Positions 1,789-60,500 of a DNA stretch of 64,000 bases are shown here, piece by piece. Numbering within the stretch: position 1 is the first letter of the stretch; each line of letters begins with the position of its first letter. The position numbers were made by a program, and so were the translations under genes. The stretch spans positions 33,084,139-33,148,138 of the forward strand of contig CM059563.1 of NCBI GenBank assembly GCA_030386875.1, given 5' to 3'. Source of the stretch: Morinoia aosen. Taxonomy: Eukaryota; Arthropoda; Malacostraca; Amphipoda; Talitridae. Below the pieces are notes generated by a model. That model saw nothing but the letters and a program-made list of their open reading frames with translations. It did not search any database and was not told the DNA's origin.

Positions 1789-2490
1789 GGTCAATGTTGG
1801 GCTTAATGTTTAATGTAATCATGGAAATGAATAATTCCATTGCTGTGAATCACTAGAGGAATGCATGTAAAAACGTTTTACTAGAATGACATTCTGCTCG
1901 CTGATGCATTATTTTTTCGAATTTTTGAACTTTGAAGTTGGCATTTACGCTCCAAAGAAAGCGAGCGCACCAAGCGCAATTTAATTAATAACGGAAGCTA
2001 ACCCCTTATTACAAAATTGAAGAGGTTGGGTCGTGAGGGGGAGCCACAGTTCTTTTAGTGAAAATTATAAATAAAGCTTCTAACTCACCAATTAGGGTGA
2101 CGACCGAAATCTTGTTTATATCAGCTCCAAGATGGCGACCACCATGGGCACTGCCATCTTGGAGCCAATGTAAACAAGATTGCGGTCGTCACCCTAATGG
2201 GTAGGTTAGACGCTTTATTTATAATTTTCACTAAAAGAACTGTGGCTCCCCCTCAAGACCCAGCCTCTCTACATTTGTAATAGGAGGTTAGCTTCCGTTA
2301 TTAATTAAATTGCGCTTGGTGCGCTCGCTTCCTTTAGCACGCGAAAGCCAACTTCAAAGTTCAATAATTCAAAAATAATGCATCATCAAGCAGAATGTCA
2401 TTTATGTTGAACGTTCTTAAATGGGTTCCTTTAGTGATTGTTCGGAATAAAATTATTAATTTCCATGATTGCATTAAACCCAACATTGAC
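1789..2490. mobile_element. GGTCAAT-family foldback transposon, copy A
   Basis: An almost perfect 702-bp palindrome: arms of about 340 bp meet at ~2140 around CCAAGATGGC...GCCATCTTGG. Ends GGTCAATGTTGGG / CCCAACATTGAC. Flanked by the 9-bp direct repeat TTTTTGTTG (1780-1788, 2491-2499). No coding capacity, so it is a non-autonomous element whose superfamily is not settled; 8-9 bp duplications fit hAT, P or Mutator-like. Confidence 0.75.
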
Positions 2491-3014
2491 TTTTTGTTGC
2501 TTGAATCATGGTAATAACATCAAAATAAACTACTTTTTATCCATACACTTTTTTCGTCAAATGAGTATTTAATGAGGTATAACGGTAGATTTAGTTTCGT
2601 CTTTGATGACGAGGGCGGCAGAAGCGAGACTCCAAATGCAGTGATGCCGTAGGGTGCAGTCGATGAATTGCTTCACACTTCGAACACTGGAGTTGGCTTT
2701 CTAGCTCACCGACTTTTTAGGACTTTATAACCCATTAATGCCGATAATTCTACAAAGTTTATTAAAACACAATTTTCAGCTAAACTGATTTATTAGTCTC
2801 CCATAAGTAATTGTAAAGAAAAAAAAATTGTATTAATTACTGAAATACAAACTGGCAACTATACTTTCCACCCAGCAATAAAATAATGTATACAGTTAAT
2901 GAGTAATCAAAGTTACCATGAAAAATTTTCTGTTAGTAACTGTTCATATATTGTCTTTCCTAGGTTTCTTTTTTGGCGTGAAAGATTTTCACAAACTCTA
3001 GGTGTACAGGAATG

Positions 3015-3788
3015 GGTTAATGTGAAGTTTAATGTGATCACGGAAAATAATAATTTTATTTCAAAGAATCACTAAAGGAACCCATTTAAGAACGTTTTAC
3101 ATGAATGACGTTCTGCTCGCTGATGCGTTATTTTCGAATTGATAAACTTTGAAGTTGGCTTTTGCGCACCAAAGGAACAAGCGCGCAAAGAAGAATTTAA
3201 TTAATAACGGAAGCTAACCCCCTAATACAAACGTTAAGAGGTTGGGTCGTGAGGGGGAGCCACAGTTCTTCTAGTGAAAATTATGAATAAAGGTTCAAAG
3301 CAACCCATTAAGGTCACGTCAACAATTTGTTTACATCTGCTCCAAGATGGCGGCGGCCGTACCGGGTGGTGCCATCTTTGAGCTGACTGCAAAGGTGATG
3401 ACGTAATAATGATGACTAAAAAAAACGTAAAAAGCACCAAGTACAAAAAATAGTACCTTACCTTTTTTGTGTTATGAACTGATAACAATATTTCTTGTTA
3501 TTTTATTAACAATTTCTATCATTCTTTCATTTCTACAAAGTTCTGGCAAAAACTTTAACACCTCATGATCTGAACTTTGCCTTTCCCGAAGCAACCTGGT
3601 CGTACTCTGTGTTGCACATTTTGCGCGGGATAGCGATTTCACCTATAACTTCAGAGCTGAAAAATTCATAAATAACGCATCAGCGAGCAGAATGTCTATT
3701 TTGTAAAACGTTCTTAAATGGGTTCCTTTAGTGATTATTTGGAATAAAATTATTATTTTTCGTGATCACATTAAACTTCACATTGACC
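3015..3788. mobile_element. GGTCAAT-family foldback transposon, copy B
   Basis: 774 bp. Ends GGTTAATGTGAAG / CTTCACATTGACC, 8-bp target duplication CAGGAATG (3007-3014, 3789-3796). The arms share the CTAAAGGAACCCAT, CATTCTGCTCGCTGATGC-like and GGGAGCCACAG modules with copy A. The centre (about 3380-3660) is unique. It interrupts the C-terminal Cys-rich region of the piggyBac transposase remnant. Confidence 0.8.
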
Positions 3789-4312
3789 CAGGAATGCTGC
3801 ACACGCTGCAAAAATAAATGATACGGGAGCCACATTCACGGCATCTGTTGTACGGACTTTTGCCTTTATAGGTCCAATGATGCTGACTGCTGTACCGCAG
3901 TGTGTTCACAACAGGCATAAGAACTGGACCTGGTTTTGCCTTAATTTTCCCATAATTAGTCAGTTGATATCACCAGTTGCTCTGAGAATTCTAATAAGCT
4001 AATTTTCCTATCATGTTCTCTGGAAAGTTTACATCCATTTACAACTTGAGTGTTGACGGTTCAGGCAAATAGAGGCCACCACCATTTCTTTGATCTTATT
4101 CTGCACCGGTGTGCTGCTACTTGTTGATCAAATAGGTCCACGCCACCCATGTGCTGGTTATAAATGTGGATTGAGTGCGGTTGGTCAACTTCAACGTGTT
4201 TCTTGTCAACTCGAGTCCACCGTTTTCATTTTTTTTGCAGGATCTGAATGAAGTTTGTTTGAGGCAATGCTTTCCACTTTGTTGTCTTTTCACTTTACAA
4301 CTGAAATGCAGA

Positions 4313-4852
4313 GTAAATATGTAGAAAAGTTCAGTAATATATTTTCCACTTTTTGTTGCCTAATCATAGTTAATTAGATCGAAATAAATAAGTTTTCTTC
4401 TATGCACTTTCCATCTTAAATGAATATTTGACAAGTTATAGCGATATGTTGATTTTCGTCTTTGATGACGATTGCGATCGAATAAACCAATTGATTTTCG
4501 AATTTTTGGTGCTTAAATAATGATAATAACATCAAGATAAACTTCTTTTCACCTATACACTGTTTGCGTCAAATGAGTATTTACCGAGTTATAGCGTTAG
4601 GTTTAGTTTTGTCTTTGATGACGAGCGCATTGGAAGCGAGACTCCATTGCAGTGTTGCCATACGCCATGCTGATCAATTTCTTTCTGCTTTAAACACTGG
4701 AGTTGCGGTAAGTCATTTACCGCTATAACTTATAAAATATTCATTTAAGACGGAAAGTGCATAGAAGAAAACTTGTTTATTTTGATCTAATTAACTATGT
4801 TTAGGCAACAAAAAGTAGAAAATCAATTACTGACCTTTCTTACACATTTACC
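4313..4852. mobile_element. GGTAAAT-family foldback transposon, copy P1
   Basis: 540 bp with inverted arms of at least 110 bp (CCACTTTTTGTTGCCTAATC at 4350 against the complementary GGCAACAAAAAGTAGA near 4804). Flanked by an imperfect ~8-10 bp repeat, GAAATGCAGA on the left and AAAATACAGA on the right. Inserted in the piggyBac pseudogene. Non-coding. Confidence 0.7.
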
Positions 4853-5763: not shown

Positions 5764-6488
5764 GGTAAATTTTGAGCGTTGGGTAGTAATCGATTTTCTA
5801 GTTTTTGGTGCCTAAACATACATAATGAGATCGAAATAAACAATATTTTTTCTATACACTTTCTGTCAGAAATAACTATTGTACAAGTTACAGCGGTAAA
5901 TGACTTACTGCAACTCTAGTGTTTGAAGCTGAAAGAAATTCATCGAGCGCATCGTATGGCAACACTACAATAGACTCTTCCTTCCGACGCGCTCGAATGC
6001 TCGAGCGCATCCCATCATCTAAGACGAAAGTCAACACACCGCTATAACTCGTTAATTTTGGGTGATAATTTCTTTTGTGTTATTAACTAAAAGATCCTAG
6101 AAGTGGGTTCAGGCTCCATGGGGTGAGGTGAGCTAATGATACATTAAAAATTATTCAAACGTATTCTAACAGCTCAATTGCGCAAAAAACATAACCTACC
6201 GCACTAACTCGTAAAATACTAATTTGCTGCAAAAAGTGTATGGAAGAAAAGTAGTTCATTTTGATGTTATTATCACGATTCAAGTAACAAAAGTTGGAAA
6301 ATCGATTAGTAGCTGTTCATTCAATTGCATTCGTCATAAAAGGCAAAAATTAACATACCGCTATAACTCTTGAAATAGTCATTTCTGGAGAAGTGCATAG
6401 AAGAAAAGTTGTTCATTTCCATCTAATTTACTATGTTTAGGCACCAAAACCTGGAAAATGGATTACTCCCCAACGCTCAACATTTACC
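5764..6488. mobile_element. GGTAAAT-family foldback transposon, copy P3
   Basis: 725 bp. Ends GGTAAAT...ATTTACC; 8-bp target duplication CATCTTTT / CAACTTTT with one mismatch. The inner part carries the CGCTCGA-rich module and a central segment (about 6058-6190, ATCCTAGAAGTGGGTTCAG) that is also found in copy C and, inverted, in copy P4. Confidence 0.72.
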
Positions 6489-6921: not shown

Positions 6922-7027
6922 ACAAAAAAATTGGAAGAATTAGTGACCAAGTGTGTGCATTTACTTACTATGTAGTAACCCTACATACTAAGTAAATCCA
7001 CACACTTGGTCACTAATTCTTCCGATT
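6922..7027. repeat. Inverted duplication of flanking DNA at the end of copy P4
   Basis: About 50 bases running up to CTATGTAG at 6975 are repeated as their reverse complement immediately after a 5-base loop (TAACC), ending in TTGGTCACTAATTCTTCC. Arms differ at a few positions. It would extrude as a hairpin. Confidence 0.85.
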
Positions 7028-7578
7028 TTAAGGAGATGCAACTAATCGATTATTGAAATTTTGTTGCCTGTATCATGGTAATTATATTGAAATAAGCAAC
7101 TTTTCTTCTATCCACTTTTTGGGGCAACTGAGGATTCAACAAGTTATAGCGGTAGGTTTAGTTTGGGTAGAGTACGTTTCGGTACTTTTTAATTCATTAT
7201 TTGCCAGCCCCGCAGAGCCTGCGGAGCCTGAACCCACTTCTAGGATCTTTTAGTTAATAACACAATAGAAATTATCACCCCAAAAATTACTAATTATAGC
7301 GGTATGTTCATTTTTGTCTTAGATGGTGGGAATGCGCTGAATCATTCGAGCGCGTCGGAAGGGAGAGTCCATTGTAGTGTTGCCATCCGGCGCGCTCGAT
7401 GAATTACTTGCCGCTTGAAACACTAGAGTTAGGGTCAGTAATTTACCGCTATTACTCATTAAATACTCATTTACCTCAAAAAGTGCATAGATGAAAAGTT
7501 GTTTATTTTGATGCAATTACCATAATATAGGCAACAAAATTTCGAAAATCGATTAGTTGCATCTCCTTAACATTAACC
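6976..7578. mobile_element. GGTAAAT-family foldback transposon, copy P4
   Basis: Inner arms AAGGAGATGCAACTAATCGA (7031 on) and its complement near 7549-7570. The right end CATTAACC is followed by CTATGTAG (7579-7586), which matches CTATGTAG at 6968-6975 on the left, an 8-bp target duplication. The left end carries an extra inverted copy of flanking DNA (described separately). It contains the AGTGGGTTCAG module in reverse orientation at ~7165-7290. Confidence 0.68.
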
Positions 7579-7586
7579 CTATGTAG

Positions 7587-8678: not shown

Positions 8679-8682
8679 CGTA

Positions 8683-9193: not shown

Positions 9194-9197
9194 CGTA

Positions 9198-9662: not shown

Positions 9663-9675
9663 TTCTTGAAGTAAA

Positions 9676-10041: not shown

Positions 10042-10054
10042 TTCTTGAAGTAAA

Positions 10055-10678: not shown

Positions 10679-11284
10679 GGTCAATATGCAGTTTAATGCG
10701 CTCATGGAAATTAACAATTTCATTCCAAAGAATCACTAAAGGATCACATCTAAAAATGTTTTACACGATTGACATTCTGCTCGCTGATGCGTTATTTTTG
10801 AGTTATTCAACTGAAATTTTTGTAAACTGAATTCAACTGAAATACAATAAAGGTTATCACCATAAAATATTAGCGAGACTGGGGTAGTGAATACTGAAAT
10901 TGATATGCACTCAACATCAGTTTCAATATGGCCACCATTGTAGAACATTAGCAAAACTGTAGGAGTAAATACTATAGATTTAGTATTGTAATATTTTGGG
11001 TGATAACCTTTATTGTGTTAATAACTAAACCATCCTAGAAGTGGGTTCAGGGTCTGCGGGGTCGGCAAATAATACATTACAAAGTCCCCAAGCGTACCCG
11101 AACGGCTCAAGCGTGCAACGCAACTGCTATGGAAGACAAAAATTTCAAAGTTGAATAACTCGAAAATAATGCATCAACGAGCAGAATATCGTTCTTGTAA
11201 AAGGTTTTTTTTAGTGTGTTCCTTTAGTGATTCTTTAGAAGAGAACTGTTAATTTTTGTGAGCGCATTAAACTGCATATCGACC
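10679..11284. mobile_element. GGTCAAT-family foldback transposon, copy C
   Basis: 606 bp. Ends GGTCAATATGCAG / CTGCATATCGACC; perfect 8-bp target duplication GATAGGTG (10671-10678, 11285-11292). Arms share AATCACTAAAGGA and GCTCGCTGATGCGTTATTTT with copies A and B. The centre carries the AGTGGGTTCAGGGTCTGC module shared with the GGTAAAT family. Confidence 0.8.
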
Positions 11285-11295: not shown

Positions 11296-12316
11296 TGGAT
11301 AATATTTAAGGAAAAAAACATCAATAAATTTTCCAATATGTGTTGCTTGCAAAATGTTGATTAGATTAAAATAAACAACTTTTCTTTTATGCACTTTCTG
11401 TCACAAATGAGTATTTAAGGTAATTGAACGCTTATTCCTACAATTTTTTTATAAATGAATGAATAATTCTGGAGCGAAATGAGCTCTTGAGTATTCACAG
11501 CATGTTTATAACATTCGAATACAGTTGTAGCCCATAAAGTTTTTGGAATTTGCCCATCGTTTTGAAATTTACCACCCTCCCTTTGGTAATTTTTTTTGAA
11601 TTTCAATATTAAACAGACTTTATAGTCTTTTCACCGTACTTTCAACAATTTCTCCAGTTTCAACAATTTCTCCAGTTTCAACACTTTCACTAGCTTTCCG
11701 CTTATGCTTCAACCAATTTTTGGCCAAGCGGACTGCTCACTTTCACTTTCTAAGCATTTTACAGGACATTTTGACAGGCCACTACCCATTCTTGTAAAGC
11801 TATCCCATCAATGGTCATAAATTTCTTTATACAAAACAAAAAACTGTAGCAACGTCCAGAGTTCGACGCCACAGCTTCAGTTGAATGCAGCACTGCTGAT
11901 GCTTAGTGGGGATCAATTTGGGGGAAATTTGGGGAGGTTAGGTTGCCAAATCCTGGTAAATGACGTTTTTACATGGTTAAAGGTTTTTGAAACATTTTTC
12001 CGCAGTAATCCCATTTTTGATTTTTGAAAAATCATTGTAATTTCTTTCATAGAAAATTTTCATGGGGAGACTCTGATAGAATCTGTAACAACGGCTTTAA
12101 TGTGCACGAATGATTGTTGGGTTTTGTTAGTTCTGGTAGGTTATGTTAGGTTACATTGGGTTAGCTTAGATTAGTGAAGTTACCTTACATCACCACCATA
12201 AATCATAACTCATTTGTGGTGGAAAGTGCATAGAAGTTAAGTTGTTTAGTTTGATCTAATTACCGTTATACAAGTAACAAATATGGAAAAATTGATGTCT
12301 TCTTTTTTACATTTAC
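11296..12316. mobile_element. GGTAAAT-family foldback transposon, copy P5 (diverged)
   Basis: Arms AACAACTTTTCTTTTATGCA (11369) and the complementary GTGCATAGAAGTTAAGTTG (about 12227). Right end ACATTTAC followed by TGGTGATA, matching AGGTGATA at 11288-11295 on the left with one mismatch. About 1 kb. The middle has a short direct repeat TTTCAACAATTTCTCCAG at about 11640-11680 and nothing recognisable as coding. Confidence 0.55.
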
Positions 12317-12575
12317 TGGTGATAGGTTTAAGTTAGTTACACTAGCCTATGACATGGGGGAACTAGTGCTCAGGAGAAAGGTACTGAATTATTTCAGCTG
12401 AGTATAGGCCTTTGAGACTTTAGTCTTTAGTGCCTACTTTGCTTTTACAGTTTTGGTTTGGTCTTTGGTGTTTATTTTTTGTCTTTTCTTGTTTTCCTTA
12501 TCTCTTCTTCCTTTTCTTCTCAACTGTGACACCAGGTCAACAATTGGTAATAATAAATTGAAGAATGGCTTCGTT

Positions 12576-15537: not shown

Positions 15538-18500
15538 GTAAGCTATAGCAAACCCAAGACAATCATATTATAAGACTATGCCTACAAATAGGTGGCATGT
15601 AGATACAAGTTATTTTTGAACTTGTAGGGGATGAGTTATTAACCATTTAATATTTGCTTTACCTTGCACAGTGACTATTACATCATGTAACCCTTTTTAT
15701 GTATATCAAAAAGATATACTCTTATGTCACTGTAATAACCCATTGACACTGACATTAATTTATTACTTGAGTTCATCTGAATTGCAATTTTTATTCTGCT
15801 ATTTAGGTACATCAATTCTATGCAATGGTTGTGCATTAGTATTCCTCTATTTTTTACTATAGATGGATACATTATTTCAAGATTTGCATGAGCATCTTCC
15901 ATGGAATTGACAGCACAATACCTAGGAATTGAAACCATTGCAGCTGCATATAAAAATTTTTGTGAAATATTGATGTGTGTGCCTATCATTTGCATTGAAA
16001 AATGTGTTGAAGATAGAATTATTAAATAATCTTGTAGATTTAGTGGAAAAGTTGTACACATTTTGTAAATACAGTGTAGTTATGGTGAAAAGTTGAAAGT
16101 CTTGATTTTCAGTAATAGCTACACTAATTGAGTCAAACCTACTGTAGCTTCTCAGTTATGTGTGTGCAAGATGCTAATATTGTAGGCTCCACAGCCAGTA
16201 TTTTTTACGGTTTCTCAATTATTTCGGCCCCTCTATACTTTTTGATCAAATTGTAAATGTATAACAGGGTGCGTACAGGCATGGAGAAGCATGGAAAGTA
16301 GTTGAATTTCGAAAATAAAATTCAAGGCCTCGAAAGTAGTGGAATTTTAAAAATGGTCATTGAAAGTCATGAAATTTAAATGCTTAAATTTTACTGTTGA
16401 AAATTTTCGTTCCGTTTGGTCCGCGTTGAGCGAGGCGTTGTCAGTAACCTTCGAGTGTTACTTGGGCTCTGATTGGTTGATACAGCTACGTCTTTAGTGT
16501 CCGCGATTTTGATTGGTTCTCAGGCGTCACGTGAAACCAAACGCGCTCAGTGAAGACACGCGCTCGCTCGGACCATTGTTGACCTGTCGCCACTGTTGAA
16601 CATTTTCGAGCTGAGTTTTTATCATCGGTCTTGACCATCCCGTGTGTGTGTGTGTGTGTGACTAGAGTTACGGTGCCGAGACTGAGCTGAGGAATTATCG
16701 TCATGCCAGGCAGTTGTTGCACAGAGGAAGATCAGCACTTTCAACAGTTTTCAGCAAGACACTGATTGGCTAGATGTCTTCTGGAGCAGCCAGCTGGCCA
16801 CATCCTCCCTCAAGAAACTGTGGCTGGTTGTGAAGATGCTACTGGTCCTGTCACATGGCCAGGCTTCAGTGGAAAGGGGCTTTTCTGTGAGCAAGCAGCT
16901 CATGGAAGTCAACATGGGTGAGAACACCATCGTGGTGCAGAGAGTGGTCATGGACCACATCAAACATGTAGGAGGTATCTCCAAGGTTGACATTTCCAAG
17001 AAACTCCTCTTTTCAGCTTCACAGGGCAGACAGCGCTATCAACACTACCTGGATCAAAAGAAGGAAGAGGCAGAGAAGCAGAAGAAGGGAGAGAAGAGGA
17101 AGAGAGAACTGGATGAAGTGGAGAACCTGAAGACAAAACGGAAGAGGATGGAGGAGAGTCTGCAAGCGCTGGTGGAGGATGCTGACAGCTTTGCACGGAA
17201 GGCAGAGGACAAGAATGATTTGCGCCTACTGGCAAAGTCAAATGCATTGAGGAAATCAGCCAAAGACAAGCAAGAACAACTCAAGGGGCTGAATGCGGAA
17301 ATTAATGACAAACTTAATGCACTGGCAAATGCATAGCAGATGCTATTGAACTGTCCAGCATGACTGTTTGGTGTTGTGATGATCATTTACACATTTATGA
17401 AAACAAGACCTGCAAGTAATGATGATTGTTCTGTGAAGTTTATGACTGAAATACATTTATTGTGCTGCAATTTAACTTTGTGTGACATTATTTTGGGCAG
17501 AGAGAGGTAGTGAAAATGTGATTTGGTTTTCATAAAAAGTCATGAAAAAGTAGTGGAATTTTGAACCTCAGAGCCTGTACGCACCCTGGTATAATGATTT
17601 GATGGATGTAAAAGTATGGACATTTTTCCAAAAAATATGTGCTAATTGAAAAGAGATATTTTATTCAGGAGAAAGGTCAATATGGCAGCAAGATGTGCTA
17701 TTGATATTTACTAATGAGAGGATGTGCTTTTTTCATCTTGAAGACTGATACTATCAAGATTTAAGTGAAAAAAGAACTGTAAACTATATGCTGCCATCCC
17801 TATGAATTTTGCAAAGAAACATTTTTATAGTACTGATTTCCTGTTTGTGCCATATTTGACCTTGGTGGAGAGGGAATACATCATGCCTAGGGCAGAAAAT
17901 ATCCATGGATTGATTGTAAGCTCATTTGCAAAATACTAATCGTGAAGATGCTATGTCTGACAATGGAAGAGTATGGTGATGATTATGAATTTTCAGTAAA
18001 AATTTGCCCATCAATAGAGAATGGTTAAAGTTTGTGGAATTTTAATCTCTAATAATGTCTTCAAAATTTTTCATTCAATTCTTTAATCATATAGAATGAA
18101 GATATACATAGAAAACCAGATTTTGAAACAAATAATTCTATTTATAAATTGTAGGAGCATCAATAATGCCATTAACATATCGGGTTTGACGGTTTCAGGG
18201 GTTCCGCCGTCCCGATGCGTTTCAGATCATCACTGACCTGAGGGGCCAAGGTTCAAGCAATCGTTTCAGTTTCTTATGTGAAGGGGGCAATTACACACAG
18301 CTGCGAAGTCCTTTTACTGGAGTGATGTGCTGATACAAAACGGATACATAATACAGTGAACACAATGGACGGGCGGGGCAGGCAGCGCCCCAGCACCGCT
18401 GTGCGACGCGCACACGCCGTAGCTCGGCGGTGGCTGCGCTCGACTATCTCTAGGCCTGAATGCCTAATCCTTAATGCCTCACGCTTTAACATTACAGCGC

Positions 18501-45500: not shown

Positions 45501-48500
45501 TGCTGTTCGGGAGTGGCTGGACGGCGCACGAGACGCTGCGGCCACTGGCCTACTCCACCCTCGCCGACCTCGTGCACCACGTCAGGTGAACCCCCGCCTG
45601 GCCCCGCCAGTGGTCTGCCTTGACCCCTGAATGCACGGGGGCGTCTAAATGATCCCAACTTAATTTAAACTCAAATAACTGCGCATTTTATCCTAATACG
45701 TGAACATGGCTTTGTTGCTTTCCCCTAATAACTGAAACTGGTTAACCTTCATGTGAATTTTTTCTTTTATAGAAAAGTTAGGGGCAAAATGATCCCACTG
45801 TGTAAGTTTTTTGGAAATAATATCGTGCATTCATGGGTTTATAAAAATGTTCTCATTTGTTTAAATTTTACCAGCTTAGGATTTTCCCCTCACTTGCCTT
45901 TGTGCGGAATGGGGGCATTCTTTTGTGCCTGATGCATCTGTACAATGTATTACGTAATTTATTCCTATAACTCAGATTTTGTGGATCTTACTCATGGGTA
46001 TTTTACTACTCATGCTTGCCTCTAGAAAAATGCAGTGCATGGAAAAACAATTTGTCGGTTTCATTGTATTTGTAATAATTCTTACTAGACTAATTACTGT
46101 TTTTACTAGTATATAGGAGTATACAGTTAGTGTCAATGGTGCTATTTGTTGTAAAATAAATATTTGTACTCTACAAAATGGTTATTTTCACATGCTCCAT
46201 GGTAATTGACGTACCATTGTCTAACTTGATTCTACGTAATTACCTGATGATGAGATACAGTATGTGTCAATTGAAAAATGTGTTAGTTATTAAATTTTTG
46301 TTGAAAATATTAATTCAACAAAAATTCTCAACTTCTATTAGTTAAAAATTTCTTTTACGAGGCTATCCTTGTTGTAATTTGCCTATCACACGCCACGAAT
46401 GCCCCATTTGAGTTCCGCGCTCTTACCCTTTCTTTGTGGCGAAATTATGAAGTTATCTATATCTAAATTATTTCTAAATAAATTGCTAACTAAAAACTAT
46501 GTCGATACGCTAGAATGCTCTAGTCCTTTTCTTGACCCAAAGCCAATATTTGCTTTTTTATTTAGCATCAACCAAGAGCTTCTTATAGCTTGGTGGAGTG
46601 GAAGGAAGTATGTGAGGGGGAACAATGTAATATTAACATTAAACTGCGAATCACGCACCAATTACAGAAGAAGAATACTGCAGAACTGAGTGATGGCTCT
46701 GCTGCAAAGGATTGAATTGTAATAATTGTTTTGTGTAATTTATTTGCATCTAAGTATGGAGATTTAGGTATGATCAGCTTGCGTGTGATCTTTTTTGCTT
46801 TTTATGCATATTCTATCATGACATACTTTTGTTGAAGTGTAAAAAGGATGTGTAGTGTTTTGATTAGTTAAATGCGTATTAAATGTAGAATTTCATTGTA
46901 TACAAACAGTTGTTTCCCCCCACGATGTATCGGTTTTACATTTAAATTCTAGGAGATTTGCTCATTCTATGTTGTTGAAATAATGGTGTTTCTTACAGAA
47001 CAAAACTAAACCTTCAAGCACTGAACCGTGCCGTCCATTTGTTTTCAAAAAACATCCATGACGAGACGCTCCCAACGAGCATCCAAACGATGTCATGCAA
47101 GCTCTTGCTGAACTTGGTAGATGGCATAAGAACCTACAATCAAGACGATTCCTACGATCCTCAGCTCCCAAAGGACTTGCTCATTCGCATGCTGCAGGTG
47201 TTTGTGGACAAGTTCAAGTCCATAGCGCAGTTGCAGGTGCCATACCTGAAGCAGAAGCACAGTGAAAAGGAGGTGTCAAACGTTCCCGCTGCGCCGTTCT
47301 CGGTGCCCTCCACAGCCAACAGCACGCCTGGGTCGAGCACCAGCGGCGGCGTAGAGGGGGCTCAAGACATCAAGCAAGAGGATATCAAGGTCTCAAAATT
47401 GTTGGCGGGTGCTCCTGCGGCCAGCGCTAGTGTTCCCTCAGAGTCTGATACTGGCAAAGACAAGGATCAAATTCAGAAGCTTGGTGCGCCTCCCAACATC
47501 ACTCAGAACTACAGCGTCCCTGACTGCAAAGCGCTTGTCAAAACTTTGGTGTCTGGGGTCAAAACCATAACTTGGGGTTATACTAACTCCCGCTTCTGTG
47601 CTGATAAAGCAAATGGAGAAAAAATCTTCGAACCGAAGGAAGTGTTGATATTCATAAGGTTTGTGAAGTGGGCGATGCAGGCGTTGGACATCTATACAAT
47701 CAACACCCACGGCACCACACAAAGTGGACCTTCGGTGTCTTCGTCTCAGCGAGCGTCGGGCGTGACGACGGGAGGACGGTCCAAAGAAGAGAAGGAAGTG
47801 CTTGAGCATTTTGCTGGCGTGTTCACTCTGCTCAACCCCGCCACCTTCAAAGAAATATTCTCTACTTCAATCGATTATGTAGTCGACCGAATCCACTTGA
47901 ACAACGCACTGCAAGGAGTGGCCAACACGTTCCTTGCTAACCCCACCCCTTCGCCTGTATTTGCCACTATTCTGGTGGAATATCTTCTTAAACACATGGA
48001 AGAAATGGGCAAACCAGTCGAAAGATCCAGCCTCTATTTGAAGTTATTTAAGCTTGTGTTTGGTAGCGTTTCACTCTTTGCAACACCGAATGAGCAAATG
48101 TTGAAACCTCACCTGCATCAAATAGTAAATAAGTCAATGGAGCTGGCCATGAGCGCAAAGGAACCTTACAACTATTTTCTTTTGTTACGCGCTCTTTTCA
48201 GGTCAATTGGTGGAGGAAGCCATGACTTGCTATACCAAGAGTTTCTGCCTTTACTTCCAACTTTGTTGCAAGGGCTGAACAGCCTACAGAGCGGCCTTCA
48301 CAAGCAACACATGAAGGACTTGTTCGTCGAGTTGTGTTTGACGGTTCCTGTTCGTTTGTCATCACTTCTTCCCTACCTGCCAATGTTGATGGATCCTCTT
48401 GTGTCCGCTCTCAATGGCTCTCAAATGCTCATTTCTCAAGGTCTACGAACTCTTGAACTGTGTGTCGACAACCTGCAGCCAGACTTCCTGTATGAGCACA

Positions 48501-51500
48501 TCCAGCCCGTCAGAGCTGAGCTCATGCAGGCCCTGTGGAAAACTTTGCGCAATCCCAATGACACGACAGCCCAAGTGGCTTTCAGGGTTCTTGGCAAATT
48601 TGGTGGGGGTAACAGGAAAATGATGATAGAACCTCAAAAGCTGTCCTATGAAGAGCAAGAAACCCCAAGCACTTGTATCAATGTACTTTTTGCTGAGCAT
48701 AAAGTGCCAATTGTGCTACCTGTCGAGAAAATCATTGAAGTTGCTTTCAATGCCCTCAAAACGTCAACTACTGAACCTTGGTATCGCCAGCAGTGCTGGG
48801 AAGTTGTACGTTGCTTTTTGATTGGCTCAATGCTCAAGGATCAGGACAGAGGTCTGTTGTCAAAACTTATAAACCACCCGAGCTTCAAAGACGGTGATAT
48901 TTTGACTTGCGAACCGTACAAGTGTCGAGACGAGGCTGCGCGCAGAGTTCACCAGATGGCTCTCACCGCCATGCTCGTCACCGCTGCCATCAAGGAACTC
49001 AGCAAGCAGGTGCTGCCAAGCATGGTGTCTGTGGTGCGACATTACACCATGGTAGCCGTTGTGCAACAAGCAGGGCCTTTCAATGTGCACAATAAAATAC
49101 AAGGCATGGACCCCTACGTGCTCATCGACGCTCTGGCTGTAGTCATGGGGCATGAGGAGAAGGAGCTCTGCAAACCAGGCCATGTGACTTTGGTCTTGAT
49201 CATCAGTACTGCCAGTGACATTTTAGGGAGCAAGGACAGAGCCTCTCGGCTTCCTCTCATGGAATACCTCGCCGTAAAAATGTGTCAGTTGTGCTACCAG
49301 CGTGCGTGGTACGCCAAACATGGTGGTTGCTTGGCCATTAAGATACTTTGTGAACACATGCCACTCAAGTGGGTACTTCAGCACCAGTTTGCATTCCTCC
49401 GAGCTCTCATGTATGTCATGATGGACCTGTCTGGCGAGGTGTCCACGGGGGCAGTGGACATGGCCAAAACTAATCTGGAAAAAATCTTACATCTGTGTGC
49501 ATCTCCTCTGTTACCTCCGCACGATACGCAAGAAATGCAGGCCATCCAAGAAAAGTCGCTGCAAGAGGTGACTCAAGAACTTGTTTTGCAGGTAACCTCC
49601 TCCAACACAATAGTGAGAGAGCAGACCATGCACTCCTTGCGCCTTCTGGGCAGGCTCACAGGACGAGGAGTTACGGAAGTCATGCTGCCACACAAGGAGG
49701 TGCTTGTAGACATGGTTCCGCCCAAGAAGCACCTCTTGCGTCATCAGCCTGCTAATGTTCAAATTGGCCTCATGGAAGGCAACACCTTCTGCACCACCTT
49801 AGAGCCTCGGCTCTTCACCTTGGATACAAATGTACAGGAGCACAAGCTATTCCTCAATGAACTCTTGAATCTAGTTGAAAGTGATGAAGCCCATCTACGG
49901 AAGTATTCCTGCTATAAAAATGTCAGTAACTTGATCCCTCTGAAAAAGTCAGCCTTGCGTGCTCTCTCAACCTGCCATTACATTCATGCTATTCAGGACA
50001 AGATCTTCACCTCAATCTACAAAGCTCTGATCACCAGTAGCAATACAGAAATTCAGGAAGCTGCGTTTGAAGGTTTACAGAAGATGTTAGATGGGAGAGT
50101 GCCTTCAGAATCCATCACAGCAGTAGTGCGTCCTTTGGTATCTCAAATCTGCAGCAGCATAAGACTTTCTTCCCAAATGGTATCAAAGATCTCTTACATC
50201 TCGCGTCTGTTTCCGAACCTGTTCACCGAGTTCGTTTGTAACGAACTGCTGAAGTACTGCTATACACTGCTGGACACAGCTGCTCTCAACCCGAGGTCCA
50301 CGGCAGAGTTTCAACTCGCAGCCAGTGTGCTTGATCTTTTCCATCGTATGCCCTCTGCCTCGCCTCGCTGCATTGAGCACATGGTGACCAAGGTGCTCAG
50401 CACAGAACAAGCGCTGCTTATTGAAGCAGGGAGTCCTCTGCGTGAGCCTCTCGTCAAGTTCCTAGTTCTTCACCCCGTGGAAACTCTCGAGCTTTTCCTG
50501 TCTCCCGCCCATGCAGGCAACGAGCAGTGGGGACGTTATCTCGAGTACATTTTCCGTCATCCATCTTCTGCTCGCCTCCGTAGTCAAATGGAGCTGCAAG
50601 GAGACCGAATACTCTGTCTCATGTCAGAATGTGACGTGACTCCTGCGCATACAGCTCAAAAGCATTTCCTGGCCATCCGTATGACTCTACTTGTTGCTCG
50701 CAACAATAATGCGTGGCTCGAGTCGCAACCTGCTCTTCTGCGGAGTTTCCGCGATCTTTGGAATTCAGAGGAATTCCACAACAAGCACATCATGTGTGCG
50801 TCAGTTGAGTTCAGCCATTGGAAAGTTCCTCGAATGGTGGTTTCAATTTTACTCATCTGCTATAAAAATCACAGCGACGACATTCCACTTTTGTTCCAGT
50901 TGGTCAAAGCTTTCATTGGTCGTTACATTCCTGAGTTCCAATTTTTGAGAGAATTTCTGGAAGAAACTGTAGCCAAGACGTACCCCGTTGAATGGAAGCG
51001 AAAGGCTTTCTTTGAGTTTGTCAACTTGTTTGAAGATGCATCCGTAATTCAGGAACTCAAAGCATGTGTCCTTCAGTATATCATCATTCCTAGCTTCTCT
51101 GTGAGCTTGGAGCGCGGCGAGCGAGACTTGCTGATAAGCAACAGTGAAACTCCCAATGTGGACTCCCCTGACAACATTGTGTCGGTGTTCATCAACCGCA
51201 TCATGAACCCTGACAACAACGGCATCTTCATCGACGCGCTTCGCATTCTCCTGTTGCAACTGTCATGCCTCCTGGTGGACAAGGCCTACAACTACTTCCA
51301 CGATGAGGCCAGCCACCGCCAAGGGGAGAAACATCGGCAGGGTGACAAACTGCGTCGCTTGATGACATTCACTTGGCCGTGTTTGCTCGCCAAGAACTGC
51401 GTCGACCCAGCCACAAAGTACCACGGACACCTCCTACTGTCGCACATCATCGCCAAGTTTGCCATCAATAGGCGCATCGTGCTACAAGTGTTTCACAGTC

Positions 51501-54500
51501 TGCTTAAGGCTCACGCTATGGAGGCGCGCACAGTCGTCAAGCAAGCTCTCGAAATACTCACTCCTGCCATGCCCGCTCGCATGGAAGACGGTGAGTGATG
51601 GTTAATGTACAGTGGTGCTGTGCTTTTGGTTCTGCTTCAATGTCTGCTCCGTTGTGGTCGCCAGTTTGTGTACAGTGTTGCTTTTGGTTCTGCTTCAATG
51701 TCTGCTTCGTTGTGGTCGCCAGTTTGTGTACAGTGTTGTTTTTGGTTCTGCTTCAATGTCTGCTCCGTTGTGGTTGCTGGCTTGTGGAGTGCCTGCTCAT
51801 TGTATGATCTCGTGATTTACGTCATGTCCTTAATTTGTATTCACCAGCTAACTTAGATCTCGCGCTGAGGTCCCGAGCTGAGGGAGTTACTTATGTAGAT
51901 TTTCTTTTTGTTAATGTAAAATGCATTTTTGTGTTGGCTTCACTCATCTTTTCAGACCATCTATTTTTGGGGTACTGCTGGCCTGCTTTTCAGCTCAAAC
52001 TATTTTCTTCTAATTTTTTCTTGCTCCTCAGCTTTCCTTCTTAATTTATTGTTTGTATGCGCGAAGGATCTTGTAAGGGAACACATCTTGTGCATAGATT
52101 CTCCATTCCCTAACTCTGTACTCTATGGTAACTTTATCCTTCTTCTCTTTGGAACGCTTTTGTTACAGTTTAGGAGCTTTGAACTAATTTATCTAATCTA
52201 GACTTTGTGTTCTCTTTTATTTAGCGCAACCAAACATTACAATTGCTGAGCCCTGGTGAAAATGTATGTACTCTTTTATTTTCTTAATATTTGCGTGTAG
52301 CTAGTTCAAAGTTTTGTAATAAATGATGGTGACTAGCCAATAGATAAAGTTTCATGCTAAATTTGTTTGGACGTCTAATATGTTTGCGTGGAAGACCAGA
52401 TTTGACAGTTTCTCACCACTGACGTGAAAGTTTAGTTATCGTTTCGACTTGTGGTTTAAATTTCATCGAAAATTTCATATCACCATTATCACAATCACAA
52501 ACTACTGTTTCATGTAACAAAATTCAATTTTAGTTTTTACAATGCGTTCAAAATCATGACACGGGCCATGGTAAAAATCGCGGTCTTGAAATAATTTGAA
52601 TTTGGCAGCTCCTTCCTCATCCTGAAGTTGGTGACTGCCTGATGCCGGTGCCAGTTTAGTGACGGTGGTTGTGATAACTGTGATATGAGTACAAAAATTC
52701 CTACATTAACAGGTTAAGATGTTGCGAGGTAGCATGATGTGCAGGACGTGAAATGCGGTGTTGCTATGTAACACGGTCACAGAGGCCGTTACAATAACAA
52801 AAATTGTCTCCCAATTATTTTGTCTTGCAACAACAATATTTCTATGGGCAGAAAACTCTGATCTTCTATCATTATAATTTAGATGTTCATGTAAATATAA
52901 ACCCGTGTGGTAAAATGGAGAGGTCTGAGACTTGTTAAATTATGCGGCTTTCGGTGCGGTATAGTTTGAGTAACTGAAGCGCCAGCAAACCAATGTTCCT
53001 ACTTTTACCACCGCTGCAGGTAACACGATGCTGACTCATTGGACTCGCAAGATCCTGGTGGAAGAAGGGCACAGTATCGGGCAGTTGGTGCATATCTTGC
53101 AGCTGGTGGTGCGGCACGTGGACGTGTACCAGCCGGTCCGGCAGCACCTGGTGCACCACATCACCAGCGCCATGCACAAGCTCGGCTTCTCCATCACCGC
53201 CAACATGGACCAGAAGCGCCTCGCTGTCGACCTCGCTGAGGTACGATTTTCAAGAAATAGTAATACTTTCAAGAAATAGTAATACTTTCAAGAAATAGTA
53301 ATACTTTCAAGAAATAGTAATACTTTCAAGAAATAGTAATACTTTCAAGAAATAGTAATACTTTCAAGGAATGAAATAGTAATACTTTCAAGAAATAGTA
53401 ATACTTTCAGGAAATAGTAGTACTTTCATGAAATAGTACTTTCAAAAAATAGTAATACTTTCAGGAAATAGTAATACTTTCAAGAAATAGTAATACTTTC
53501 AAGAAATAGTAATACTTTCAAGAAATAGTAATACTTTCAGGAAATAGTAGTACTTTCAAGAAACAGTAATACTTTCAGGAAATAGTACTTTCAAGAAATA
53601 GTAATACTTTCAGGAAATACTAGTACTTTCAAGAAATAGTAATACTTTCAAGAAATAGTAATACTTTCAAGAAATAGTAGTACTTTCAAGAAATAGTAGT
53701 ACTTTCAAGAAATAATAGTACTTTTAGGAAATAGTAATACTTTTAGGAAATAGTAATACTTTTAGGAAATAGTAATACTTTTAGGAAATAGTAATACTTT
53801 TAGGAAATAGTAATACTTTGAAAAAATAGTAATAGAGAAGTAGTTTTTTTCAAGAGGTCGCATTTTCGAGAAATAGTAATAAAATGTACACATGCTTGAA
53901 CGCATTAGAGTACATATTTTCAGAAGAATAGGCTTATATGGGACAGTTTTTATGCACAAGATAAAATGATCGTAACGGTGAAACTAAATTGCTTACCTAA
54001 ATGTTGGGAGGACCTACTCGTGAGCCTTTTGATCGACTCGTATCTTGTGAACAAGTTATAGTACCTCTGCCTACTGAGAACTTTGAAGTTGTAATAACAA
54101 ATAAGTTTTGTGAACCTATTTCTAGTGGTAATGTTCTTTGTGAGTCCTGCTATATTTGTTTTATTTAAATAATCGTTATTGCGTAAGCTAAGACGCCTGG
54201 CCCGATATAGGCTTTGAATTTGAGGCGCTAGTAACCTTCTTGCCAGTACTAATGCCTGCCTGCCTGCCTGCCTTGCTCTCATTGTTTCTTCCTTGCCAGT
54301 TAGGACTTCTAGCTGTCAGGCTCTAGCATAGTTTGGTGGTCCTTCTTGGTGTTGCTTAGTATATTGCTTCTTTTTTTCCTACTCAAAATTTCTTTGCGCT
54401 CCTTCTTTATTCTTTTCGCGTCAGCACATCTTGTGGGATTGCCACCTTTCTGGGATATGCAGGAGACTTTACGCTTTGACTGCTTCAGGTAAAACTGAAG

Positions 54501-57500
54501 TTCAATATTCAACTTGAATTGAAAGTCAATTGTAATGAGCAACGTTTAAAATAGCAAACATTTACGAGATCGTGCCTTCATTTCGTTTTGGTTAAGTATT
54601 TATGAAAATTGAGTTTGTGACTACTGGTCGGTCAGCAGCATCACGAAAATTGCCTCCGTGTACCACCGGGCTACACTCAGAGGAGGTATGCTGGTAAGGT
54701 TTGTCCTCGGCAGTATACCATTGGGGAACAAACTCTCCTTTATGATAACCACAGCTACCCACCAAACAACTAGCTACACTTGTTGCGAGAGTCTGATGTT
54801 CTTTTAAATTTGTAATTAGGTAGGCCTCGTCTTTCATTCTTCACTTCTTTGTCTTTCATTAGTGCTTCTAGAGGAAAATTTTGAGTCTGCCAGCTTAAAG
54901 ATAGATCCTTTGATATAAAATAGGCTGTTTATTTCTGACCTTCTGTTCTGATTCATTGATGTTGCCTCATTTTCAGCACCTAATGCTTTCTTCGTCAACT
55001 TCCATAATATTCAATAATTTTTTCAATCTAACAATTTCTGTGCACAGGGTGTAGGGGCACACCTTGTCGCATAGATTCTTCATTCCCTTCATTCCATACT
55101 AAATGCTATCTCCTTCAGCTCTTGGTAACGCTTCCATTGCGGTTAGGGGAGCTTAAACTGCCTTAAAATTCTAACTCTTTTTTTTGTCTCATTAACAGGG
55201 TGCGTACAGGCATGGAGAAGCATGGAAAGTAGTTGAATTTCGGAAATAAAATTGAAGGCCTCGAAAGTAGTGGAATTTTAAAAATGGTCATTGAAAGTCA
55301 TGAAATTTTAGGATTTTCGTGAAAAGAAAATTTTACTGTTGAAAATTTTCGTTCCGTTTGGTCCGCGTTGAGCGAGGCGTTGTCAGTAACCTTCGAGTGT
55401 TACTTGGGCTCTGATTGGTTGATACAGCTACGTCTTTAGTGTCCGCGATTTTGATTGGTTCTCAGGCGTCACGTGAAACCAAACGCGCTCAGTGTGACTG
55501 AAGACACGCGCTCGCTCGGACCATTGTTGACCTGTCGCCACTGTTGAACATTTTCGAGCTGAGTTTTTATCATCGGTCTTGACCATCCCGTGTGTGTGTG
55601 ACTAGAGTTACGGTGCCGAGACTAGCTGAGGAATTATCGTCATGCCAGGCAGTTCTTTCAACAACTTGTGGTTGCGAGACAAAGACTTTCAACAATGGAT
55701 AGCACCGCATCCCAAACTGAAAACAATGGCGGTTTGCACCGCGTGCGAGTCGGAGTTCGACATTGTTTTGGCTGGAGAATGTTCGTGTTGCTGAGAGGGG
55801 TTTGGAACTGTGGCCACATCTGAAGGAGTTTGTCCAGGCTGTCAAGTCTGGTAACATTCCACAGCCGAAAGGGAAGTCGTACAAGACAATTGAAGGACTC
55901 TCACTGGACCCCCTATTCGAGGCCAAGGTGCAAGCGTTCCTGTCAGTTGCGAAGATCTTGAACCCCTTTCTCAAAAAGTTTCAAGGAGACGCGCCACTCC
56001 TGCCTTTCATGTGCAATGACATCATCAAGATTTTGAAGGTTCTGTTGGAGAGGTGTGTGAAAGCAGAGGTGCTGGAAAAACTGACCACACCAGCTAAGTA
56101 TGCTGCCCTTGACTTCAATGACAAGACCATCTACCTGCAAAATAGCAAGATTGACCCTGGCTTTGTTGCTGCAAGTATTTTGAAAGATCAGATGGCTGCA
56201 AAGAAAGTGAATGAGAGGCTTGCTTTCTCCTTCAGGGATGATGTGAAGAATTTCCTTGTTGCTGTCATCAAGAAGATTGTTGAGAAGTCACCTTTGAAGT
56301 TCGGGTTGGCCCGAAACATGGGCTGGCTGGTGCCAAGTGTCTTTGTGGATCGCACAAAGAGAGAGAAGACCAAGTCCATGCTGAAAAACTGTCTGCAGCT
56401 GCTCAGCGATGCTAAGAGGCTACCACAGGGTGACATCGATGAGGTGATGAGCCAGTTTTCAGAGTTCTTTGATGAGGCACAGAGGAAGATCAGCACTTTC
56501 AACAGTTTTCAGCAAGACACTGATTGGCTAGATGTCTTCTGGAGCAGCCAGCTGGCCACATCCTCCCTCAAGAAACTGTGGCTGGTTGTGAAGATGCTAC
56601 TGGTCCTGTCACATGGCCAGGCTTCGGTGGAAAGGGGCTTTTCTGTGAGCAAGCAGCTCATGGAAGTCAACATGGGTGAGAACACCATCGTGGCGCAGAG
56701 AGTGGTCATGGACCACATCAAACATGTAGGAGGTATCTCCAAGGTTGACATTTCCAAGAAACTCCTCTTTTCAGCTTCACAGGGCAGACAGCGCTATCAA
56801 CACTACCTGGATCAAAAGAAGGAAGAGGCAGAGAAGCAGAAGAAGGGAGAGAAGAGGAAGAGAGAACTGGATGAAGTGGAGAACCTGAAGACAAAACGGA
56901 AGAGGATGGAGGAGAGTCTGCAAGCGCTGGTGGAGGATGCTGACAGCTTTGCACGGAAGGCAGAGGACAAGAATGATTTGCGCCTACTGGCAAAGTCAAA
57001 TGCATTGAGGAAATCAGCCAAAGACAAGCAAGAACAACTCAAGGGGCTGAATGCGGAAATTAATGACAAACTTAATGCACTGGCAAATGCACAGCAGATG
57101 CTATTGAACTGTCCAGCATGACTGTTTGGTGTTGTGATGATCATTTACACATTTATGAAAACAAGACCTGCAAGTAATGATGAATGTTCTGTGAAGTTTA
57201 TGACTGAAATACATTTATTGTGCTGCAATTTAACTTTGTGTGACATTATTTTGGGCAGAGAGAGGTAGTGAAAATGTGATTTGGTTGGCATAAAAAGTCA
57301 TGAAAAAGTAGTGGAATTTTGAACCTCAGAGCCTGTACGCACCCTGCATTAAGATATGAACGCCTTCTAATACCAGCTTTACGAGCTGTACCATCTACGG
57401 CTCAAATTTCAAGCCCTCATGGTGTCACTTAACCCTCAACTACCCCTTGTGCCACGAGTGGCTCACTCAATGAAAATGCTCGCATGTTATTTTTCTCAAG

Positions 57501-60500
57501 TTTGTGTTGCATGCGCATGCGCTGAGTTGGTGTGCTTCAGTAGTTTGTCTGCGAAGATTTATAGCGATCGCATCACCCAGAACAGCAGCCATGTCTAATC
57601 CATAGTCAGTTTGAAAAATAGCTCTTCGCATTTTCAAAGTCAAAGTATGAAAAATACTACAATTTATCGGAAATTTCTTTAGCTTAGGAGGGACTGTGTC
57701 TTCGTCCTGGGAAGACATATCTTATTGATTGATCAGTTCTATAATGGGTGGATCTAGTGATGCAAAAAAAACGGTTTTATTTGATTGCGGTTTTTTTTGC
57801 AAAAAAAACGTGTTTTTTATGCGTTTTTTTTGTTTTTTTTGGTTTTTTTTTGCACACCTAAATTTTTTTGAGTATATGTCTGGATTTTTTTTGGACACCT
57901 AAAATATATTAATATCCATGTTATTTAGTCATTTTATTGTTATAAAAACATCAAAAAGAAACCACACAGTAAAAGTGGTGGCAGATGACCCACAATTACC
58001 TAGTTAGAGGCATCTAAGAGGAACAGCAGGAGCCACAGAACTTATATTGATGGAGTCAAAATTCAGAGCTTACTATCTCTTCTATGTCTGATTTTATTTT
58101 TATGTGACCAAAAAAATCAGACTTTGCAGAGATAATAAGCTCTGAATTTTGACTCCATCAATATAAGTTCTGTGGTAAGTTCTGTGGCTCCTGCTGTACC
58201 TCTTAGACTCCTCTAGGTAATTGTGGGTTATCTGCCACTACTTTTACTGTATGGTTTCTTTTTTATGTTTTCATTACAAAAAATAACTAAAAACCATAGA
58301 TATTAATATATATTAGGTGACCAAAAAAATATGCTTTTTTTTAAAACATGTTTTTTTTACAAAAAATTCTCACTAATAAAAATGAATATTAATATATTTT
58401 CGGTAAATCTGAAGGATATGTCAGTAATTGATTTTCCACTTTTTGGAGCCTGAACCTAATTAATTGAATCAAAATAAACAAGTTTTCTTCCATGCACTTT
58501 TCGTCTCAAATGAGTATTTTACGATTTATAGCGGTAAGTTTAGTTTCGTCTATGATGACGAATGCGCTCAAATAAACAGCTACTCATCGATTTTTGAATT
58601 TTTGTTGCTGGAATCATGGTAATAAAATTGAAATAAACAACTTTTCTTCCATACACTTTTTTCGTCAAATAAGTATTTGACGAGGTATAGCGGTAGGTTT
58701 GGTTTCGTCTTGGATGACGATCGCACTGGAGGCGAGTGCGCATTGCAGTGTTGCTGTCCGACGTGCTCCTTGAATTACTTGCCGCTTCAAACACAGGAGT
58801 TGCGGTAAGTCATTTACCGCTATAACTAATAAAATTCTCATTTGAGACGGAAAGTGCATAGAAGAAAACTTGTTTATTTTGATCTAATTAACTAAGCTAA
58901 GGCATCGAAATTTACAAAATCGATAACTGACATATCCTTCAGATTTACCATATTTTCTCGTACCAAATATAACCATGCAGTTTTTTTTACAAAGAATCAT
59001 GACTAAAAAACAATATATCTTATGTGACCTAAAAAGCCCCATGCAGTTTTTGAAAAAAAAAATGTTTCTTACTAAAAAATCATGACTGAAAAAACATGAA
59101 TATATTTATGAGACCTATAAACCCCATGCTGTTTTTTAAAAATGTTTTTTTACAAACAATGATGTATGAGAAAACCTGGATATGAATATATTTTATGCGA
59201 CCAAAAAACCATGCTGTTTTATGTTATGTATTTTTCATAAAAAGTCGTGTCTTAAAATCATGGATATTGACATATTTTATGTTACCAAGAAATTCATTGT
59301 TTTTTATAAACATGTTTTTTTTTACTAAAAAGTTATTATTATTCATTTTTTGGTCACGACTTCTTTGTAAAAAAAACACCCCCTCAGGGGGATACAATTA
59401 TTGTATCTATGGGAACTAGCGCTCCCAGGGGGACAATGTGAGGGCCCAAGCTGAGAGTTAGGTAGGCCTCCTTTTTGTTGAAATAAAATGTTTTTGTTAT
59501 GTTGAGGACCACCTTTTTTCGGTTCACTGCTGTCCTGTTTTTCAGCACCTACTACTGTCTTCTTCAACTTTGATCTTGTTTCATAATCTTCCTTCCTCTC
59601 TTTGAATTGCATTTGTTGCTGGGTAGGAGGCTAAAACTAATGACTAATCTAATCTGTAAAAAAAAACATGGAAATTAATTTATTTTATGTGACCAAAAAA
59701 CCATGCTTGTAGAAAAAAAGGTTGTTTACAAAAAACATGAGTTTTATTCAATTTTATCTGACCAAAAAAACATGACTTTATAAACCTTGTTTTTTTCACA
59801 AGTCATTAATATCCATGTTTTTTAGTCATGATTTTTTTGGTAAAGAAAACATGATTTAAAAAAAACAGCATGTTTTTTTTTGGCACATAAAATATATTAA
59901 TATCCACATTTTTTAATCATGATTTTTCTGTAAAAAAGATGTTTGTAAAAAAAACAGCATGGTTGTTTATGGTAAAATATAGTATATTAATATCCGTATT
60001 TTGTAGTCTTGATTTTTTTGTAACAAAAACATTCAAAAAACACGTGGATTTTTTGGTCACATAAGATATATTAATATCCATTAGAACCGTACCAGGTCTT
60101 AGAATAAAATATCCACAAAGAATCTATTCACTCTATAAAACCTTTTGGAGACTAGCTCCATCCTCAGTAAGTCATTCAGTCAAATGTTTTTCAAATGAAC
60201 AGTGAAAATTCATTGTCCATTTCACCAAATTTTACTGAATGACTGAGGATGGAGCTAGTCTCCGAAAGGTTTCATGGAGTGAATAGATTCTTTGAAGATA
60301 TTTTATTCTAAGACCTAGTACAGTTCTAATAAACATGATTTCAATATTAACAGCATTTTTTGTTTATAAGTTTTTAAAGACAATTCGATTAAAGAAAAAT
60401 AACTTTCCTGATATTCAAATCTGTGGTTTTTTAGTCATGATTTTTTTAAATGTTTTTAAAAAAAAAAAACATTTTTTTGGTCCCATAAAATATAATAGCC

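Follow-up and report, generated by a model that had tools for sequence, protein, structure and literature searches.

Foldback transposons in the genome of the amphipod Morinoia aosen carry, just inside their tips, a variable block whose changes are typically shared by both ends of an element. We analyzed these elements from a 64,000-nucleotide stretch of DNA (C8:33084139-33148138), hereafter the window, and searched the genome of 1.99 Gb in 29 contigs. Counted from the element tip inward, the core of the block (or box) comprises positions 8-21. The two ends of a copy are paired in this block, strong pairing is confined to positions 8-26 and to a dinucleotide at positions 105-106, the changes that separate lineages are the same at both ends, coding elements of the Merlin superfamily carry boxes of their own, and box and dinucleotide are associated. 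On the basis of these observations, block and inner dinucleotide probably form a putative transposase-recognition box that co-evolves with diverging Merlin transposases.

A profile search of loci L001-L127 and the window yielded 433 hits, from which 401 tips and 79 end pairs were obtained; pairing required no more than two mismatches in the 8-bp target duplication. Removal of overlaps and repeats left 63 pairs and removal of nine flank-sharing copies left 54, whose duplications have 0, 1, and 2 mismatches in 26, 19, and 9 cases. The 45 duplications with 0-1 mismatch indicate an A/T-rich target preference, tending to (A/G)AAATTT(T/C) on both strands. Arms A and B were named by columns 137-186 only and could be distinguished in 50 of the 54 copies, the other four (L031 2327, L106, L110, L108 2399) having nearly symmetric arms. 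Two of the 50 pairs are faulty: in L108_1924 a nested element misaligns the right arm, whose true right block matches, and L058_120 is a spurious pair. Both were retained in the 50-copy coupling, own-partner, Mantel, and class-consensus analyses, and both were excluded from the coupling test without the dominant box and from the 48-copy trees. The right box of L032_801 is inconsistent between analyses, with a nested end probable. At L108, foldback 2399-2933 lies inside foldback 1924-3009; the duplication is perfect in the outer element, whose boxes are near-equal, and has one mismatch in the inner element, whose boxes are equal. Most of the sample comes from contigs C1-C3, taken in the order of listing. 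For most copies, retrieval relied on an exact tip or flank at one end and left the block free; flank constancy is therefore to some extent a product of selection.

Coupling was measured over the 50 oriented copies by comparing the average mismatch of a copy's two arms with each other (own) to that of arms from different copies (other). Own and other mismatch are 0.113 and 0.379 in the block and 0.183 and 0.634 at positions 105-106. They are 0.066 and 0.064 in the tip (1-7), 0.037 and 0.104 at 22-27, 0.100 and 0.104 at 28-34, 0.304 and 0.328 at 35-60, 0.143 and 0.154 at 61-104, and 0.177 and 0.177 at 107-135. Only columns 8, 10, 11, 14-18, 20, 21, 25, 26, 105, and 106 combine the permutation floor (p 0.0005) with a large effect; columns 51, 66, and 176 are weakly coupled. 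With the dominant-box copies and the two faulty pairs removed, 29 copies remained; of 135 columns, these 14 alone had p<=0.001. Among 48 copies, 19 have no difference between their own boxes at 8-21, 13 have one, eight have two, four have three, and four have at least four. The sequence-only reading, made from the window by a model, had attributed end-to-end pairing to something other than decay. This holds, with left-right agreement far above chance and nearly confined to the block in the GGTAAAT family.

Box changes are two-ended, in contrast to changes in the rest of the arm. We defined five box classes (21, 7, 4, 3, and 2 copies, leaving 13 of the 50 unassigned) and compared their consensus sequences in all 10 class pairs. 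The box differs in 62 of 188 scored columns (126 unchanged, 12 unscored), and 55 of these differences are the same at both ends, five are one-ended, and two differ between ends. The arm body differs in 126 of 853 scored columns (727 unchanged, 137 unscored); here, eight differences are the same at both ends, 112 are one-ended, and six differ. The contrast of 89% versus 6% is plain, although the Fisher value of 8.6e-31 is overstated since class pairs are not independent. All five scored changes at 105-106 are the same at both ends (4 unchanged, 11 unscored). No changes occur in 70 class-pair columns of the tip or in 62 of positions 28-34 (8 unscored).

Trees of 48 copies lead to the same distinction. 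A tree of body columns 35-135, omitting 105-106, has 12 A/B label changes, whereas 500 shuffles with random orientation average 32.7 changes and never go below 24 (0 of 500 as low). The box tree has 39 label changes versus a mean of 40.4, with 151 of 500 shuffles as low. The body thus sorts by arm and the box does not; the two bodies are therefore old versions that span subfamilies, while the box ignores the arm. Columns 35-135 include none of those naming the arms. An earlier tree of columns 35-160 (3 A/B changes; one clade with 47 B arms and no A arms) was replaced as partly circular, because seven of the 19 arm-naming columns lie inside it. Ties counted, no arm matches better than the copy's own partner in 35 of 50 copies when boxes are compared, and in three of 50 when bodies are. 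Bodies A and B are correlated with each other in a Mantel test (r 0.58). The distinctive feature is the two-ended nature of block changes and not subfamily structure itself.

The ends are abundant in the genome. The exact pattern GGTAAATG-N13-AGTAATCGATTTT has 898 + 862 matches (reversed control 0 + 0), GGTAAAT-N14-AGTAATCGATTTTC with <=3 mismatches has 14,011 + 13,959 (control 34 + 32), and the GGTCAAT pattern with <=2 mismatches has 4,004 + 4,018 (control 0 + 0). These controls rule out a chance origin of the pattern. We surveyed block diversity on 100 ends among the matches listed (contigs C1-C3), all without mismatch outside the block. Of the 43 distinct blocks on these ends, the commonest occupies 43 ends and another occupies eight, while 34 are singletons; linking blocks no more than two letters apart gathers 86 of the 100 ends into one cluster. 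The blocks recur as subfamilies that grade into one another. They do not resolve into a few clean classes, nor does each copy have its own, and the earlier description of the block as copy-specific does not stand. Although blocks recur in this way, two-ended changes are not even along the arm but concentrated at 8-26 and 105-106. The flanks, previously called constant, are so only in part, as selection by exact flank inflates their constancy. In 48 ends not selected by flank, diversity is 0.115 at 1-7, 0.419 at 8-21, 0.184 at 22-27, 0.190 at 28-34, and 0.344 at 35-60.

Autonomous partners, which the sequence-only reading had asked for, were found for several blocks but not for the commonest. 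A genome search with the Pfam domain DDE_Tnp_IS1595 gave 101 matches at E<=0.001, and a related-protein query gave at least 150 (the best 150 of 258 candidates scored). Seven of 12 Merlin places examined are complete elements of 1.6-2.2 kb (L118, L120, L121, L122, L123, L126, L127). Measured between stop codons, their open stretches are 356-381 codons long, and their target duplications of 8 bp contain 0-1 mismatch. The search for their ends used GG-type tips with one mismatch allowed, and all seven have GGTAAAT or GGTCAAT at both ends. Inverted repeats, including a few flank bases, span 134-162 bp in six of them and 322 columns at 70% in L123. DDE_Tnp_IS1595 is present above the Pfam cut-off in all five elements scanned (L118, L120, L122, L123, L126; E 2e-13 to 2e-15), which match no other domain at E<=0.001, including P-type transposase, THAP, and Zn_Tnp_IS1595. 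L121 and L127, outside the domain scan, were assigned by place, having been located via the DDE_Tnp_IS1595 search and a relative's protein. The putative mobilizing family is Merlin, with its IS1595-like DDE transposase, 8-bp duplications, and GG ends.

The seven coding elements have five different boxes, each alike at both ends (0-1 mismatch in 8-27). With GGTAAAT ends, these are GTAAAGGACTTGACCATAAT in L122, GTTGAGGAG[G/T]TGACCATAAT in L123, and CTGAAGGACTTGACAGTTGT in L126 and L127. With GGTCAAT ends, they are ATGAAGCGTGATGC in L118 and ATTGAATATAATG in L120 and L121, the two ends of L121 differing by one mismatch. For four of the five boxes, an identical or nearly identical version was found in foldbacks. 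The L122 box is exact in L106 and L110, and the L120/L121 box is exact in L031 1571 and has one change at one end in L033 710. The L123 box is one or two letters away in L031 2327, and the L126/L127 box within a few letters in L002, L032, and L036. These shared ends and boxes suggest that the foldbacks are mobilized by these Merlin transposases.

The N-terminus of the transposases is cysteine-rich and has no Pfam domain at E<=0.001. Between lineages with different boxes, N-terminal and catalytic identities are.78/.89,.66/.80,.65/.81, and.53/.77, so that N-terminal divergence is 1.7-2.1 times catalytic divergence in these four comparisons. Two same-box pairs (.99/.96,.93/.95) show no clear N-terminal excess. 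A search of solved structures with the L122 protein, up to E 1, gave one match, a designed protein at 0.033 that was taken as chance.

The inner dinucleotide follows the box in many ends. With T at column 25, the inner dinucleotide is TC in 15 of 15 ends; with A, TC is present in four. With CG at columns 14-15, position 105 is G in 37 ends (A 6, T 3), and with GA it is T in 35 (G 12, A 4); coding-element ends are included in these counts and ends are not independent. L126/L127 and foldbacks L002/L032/L036 have inner TC in common, and L122 and foldbacks L106/L110 have inner GG. The association is consistent with one protein contacting both places.

These results can be combined in a single mechanism. 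The foldbacks would be non-autonomous members of the Merlin superfamily (IS1595/IS1016-like DDE transposons), and their inverted arms are long. The outermost tip (1-7; GGTAAAT or GGTCAAT), common within a family, is presumed to be the cut site of the catalytic domain. The recognition box, about 8-27, would be the target of the transposase N-terminus, with positions 105-106 as a probable second contact. As one transposase would need to hold both ends, a change in the box could persist only if both ends follow. Boxes would therefore shift in step at both ends as Merlin lineages diverge, while other arm positions would drift independently. Transposase binding of box and dinucleotide, and selection keeping matched ends equal, are suggested by the pattern of variation.

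Several observations weigh against this interpretation. Box classes also follow arm-body subfamilies (Mantel body-block r 0.53 and 0.57), and part of the pairing signal is therefore plain descent. Coupling at 8-21 is weaker (own 0.193, other 0.361) in the 10 copies that lack an exact match at either end. In the GGTCAAT set (21 copies from several lineages mixed, two flank duplicates dropped), the block is again the coupling peak, with 0.91 at 8-12 and 0.86 at 13-27. Coupling then declines only gradually, to 0.37 at 28-60, 0.31 at 61-100, and 0.12 at 101-140, and 13 columns past 27 also have p<0.005. Unequal boxes, TGTAGTGCTTGGC with TGTAGCGTTGGGT or TGTAGCGTTTGGT, occur at L004:1987, L009:563, L015:591 / L023:1501, and L073:172. 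The 8-bp flanks of these copies are alike, and perhaps they represent one insertion duplicated together with its surroundings; L073 and L015 are both among the 50, and L004, being a flank duplicate of L073, is not. The inner site can also depart from the box: L123 has inner TG and its nearest foldback, L031 2327, has GG. Among the 12 Merlin places examined, five (L116, L117, L119, L124, L125) have no complete element, and the commonest box, GTGTAGCGTTGGTC, has no coding partner there; none of the foldbacks examined has a box close to that of L118. Finally, higher N-terminal divergence is common among transposases, and the comparisons made here are few.

Four other explanations were considered. 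Arm-to-arm gene conversion or foldback repair synthesis over the outer ~30 bp would homogenize a fast-changing tip per copy or founder; we regard it as unlikely. The inverted arms are able to pair, and the consensus sequences of arms A and B are equal in columns 1-27 in all five classes (0-1 differences) where their bodies differ at 6-21 scored columns. However, a single terminal tract is insufficient, given that 105-106 is equally coupled past the near-uncoupled 28-104, and classes P, P2, and M keep arm-specific letters at 35-45 despite the box change at both ends. Tracts would need to stop within the same short gap (about 28-34) each time and be accompanied by a second tiny tract. Conversion alone also leaves the matching boxes in separate coding elements unexplained. 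Of the three causes proposed from the window, conversion is thus weaker in having to explain a coupled dinucleotide ~80 bp inward beyond an uncoupled stretch. Co-evolving transposase binding sites, the first of the three, are the best supported.

Ordinary subfamilies would arise if each had a symmetric-armed founder, from which both ends inherited all letters. The recurrence of blocks, their correlation with the arm body, the four nearly symmetric copies, and the weak coupling along the arm in the GGTCAAT set all fit this explanation. Nonetheless, it is improbable: two distinct arm versions are present in 50 of 54 copies and run across box classes, and body changes are mostly one-armed whereas box changes are mostly two-armed. 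An artefact of copy selection and alignment is very improbable. Retrieval did depend for most copies on one exactly matching tip and flank, at least two of 50 pairs are faulty, and one further right box is inconsistent. The block, however, was free in selection, and the 14 columns persist without the faulty pairs and the dominant box. Coupling is also present in copies with neither end exact, and faults reduce agreement. Capture of flanking DNA as an inverted copy at each insertion, the third cause proposed, would yield a block equal at both ends of one copy but is contradicted to the point of being negligible, as identical blocks recur at unrelated sites with different 8-bp duplications and flanks.

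Beyond co-evolution of box and transposase, we tentatively raise a radiation of recognition codes within one genome. Lineages may repeatedly switch the ~20-bp box and the remote dinucleotide faster than the arm (compare 62 of 188 scored columns changed in the box with 126 of 853 in the body), forming largely separate mobilization compartments; this broader reading is possible but doubtful. If true, it would perhaps reflect escape from titration by thousands of non-coding copies, which follow at both ends.

The features of the window are collected in Table 1. Among the five GGTAAAT copies named by the sequence-only reading, those at 58402 and 5764 are paired and those at 4312 and 7020, both decayed, partly so; the latter two are outside the 54-copy sample. 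A GGTAAAT left tip claimed at 6976 is absent, the copy being that at 7020. The copy reported at 11296 agrees poorly, as had been said, and is included in the sample. The three GGTCAAT copies are paired as described.

Table 1. Foldback copies of the window, with their boxes and target duplications.
Feature	Position	Strand	Remarks
GGTAAAT-family Merlin foldback, 548 bp	58402..58949	.	block CTGAAGGATATGTC at both ends, 0/14 differ
Target duplication ATATTTTC of 58402 copy	58394-58401 and 58950-58957		8 bp, both sides
Left variable box, 58402 copy	58409..58422	+	positions 8-21 from tip
Right variable box, 58402 copy	58929..58942	-	identical to left box
GGTAAAT-family Merlin foldback, 725 bp	5764..6488	.	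duplication CATCTTTT/CAACTTTT; boxes TTTGAGCGTTGGGT / GTTGAGCGTTGGGG, 2/14 positions differ
Left variable box, 5764 copy	5771..5784	+	
Right variable box, 5764 copy	6468..6481	-	
Decayed GGTAAAT-family foldback	4312..4852	.	boxes ATGTAGAAAAGTTC / GTGTAAGAAAGGTC, 4/14 differ; left-tip G mutated
Decayed foldback	7020..7578	.	TTAAGGAGATGCA at both ends; left tip lost (TTCCGAT), right tip GGTTAAT
Possible copy, badly decayed	11297..12317	.	poor box agreement
GGTCAAT-family foldback	1789..2491	.	perfect 8-bp duplication TTTTGTTG; box GTTGGG at both ends
GGTCAAT-family foldback	3015..3788	.	perfect 8-bp duplication CAGGAATG; box GTGAAG at both ends; left tip GGTTAAT
GGTCAAT-family foldback	10679..11284	.	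perfect 8-bp duplication GATAGGTG; box ATGCAG at both ends; right tip GGTCGAT

The window has other features. A 62-bp inverted repeat, 97% alike, lies at 6056-6117 and 7223-7284 within the foldback cluster, and similar text occurs in L079 and L117 beside Merlin remnants. A TRRAP/Tra1-like exon at 46979-51598 (+) is a single open stretch of 1539 codons with Pfam Tra1 domains, and an apparent further exon of this kind, judged by eye, is at 62391-63218 (+). A Tc1/mariner-like transposase at 32566-33675 (-) is open over 370 codons and has Pfam HTH and DDE_3 matches. The open frames 16686-17336 and 55721-57121 (+) have a long near-identical part without Pfam match at E<=0.001; by eye, they resemble the C-terminal part of a hAT-type transposase. 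Minisatellites at 25248-27700 and 36157-39970 are open for up to 1240 codons, and these long reading frames are unlikely to be genes because several are open at once.

The elements agree with the published definition of the Merlin superfamily, which comprises 5'-GG terminal inverted repeats (TIRs) of 24-462 bp, 8-bp or 9-bp duplications, and the DDE_Tnp_IS1595 domain (PMC8101967); GG ends, 8-bp duplications, domain, and TIR length are all found here. Their main non-coding form differs from described Merlin elements in being a high-copy foldback with two distinguishable arms, a sharply bounded paired box, and an isolated inner dinucleotide. No such feature was met in the passages of PMC8101967 searched, and the terms 'MITE', 'nonautonomous', and 'non-autonomous' are absent from its main text. 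No description of the matched end-box feature was met in the literature searched, which does not show the feature to be unpublished.

The Foldback-like Galileo elements of Drosophila, from the P superfamily, offer a functional parallel. As reported in PMC3688188, the Galileo THAP domain binds ~70 bp from the end, with further sites inward. The THAP site lies outside the ~40-bp terminal part common to families and inside the family-specific TIR (PMC3688188). Galileo and the present foldbacks are thus alike in having long arms and a shared tip with family-specific recognition. Galileo differs in its transposase family and its 7-bp duplications. In D. mojavensis, TIR sequences served to delimit Galileo subfamilies, and 12 of 170 copies are mixtures of these (PMC3573991), whereas here bodies sort by arm and the box by subfamily. 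The sharp box limits and the remote second site are unusual.

Co-evolution of TIRs and transposases is an accepted expectation, and bipartite insertion sequence (IS) ends consist of a cleavage tip and an inner binding domain. The functional layout we propose is the same. A remark on TIR-transposase co-evolution in Tc1/mariner elements appears in PMC8101967. The idea is not new; what is added here is its resolution, the remote dinucleotide, and the foldback setting. Co-evolution is usually assumed from comparison of distant families, and here one genome holds graded variants together with several coding partners. For each position, it can be read off whether the letters of the two ends are constrained to match or free to differ. 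A binding footprint with a second site ~100 bp in is thereby predicted, and recognition switching becomes directly testable. Unlike the Tc1/mariner and IS cases, many box variants of one family are present in one genome, and the evolving positions can be read directly.

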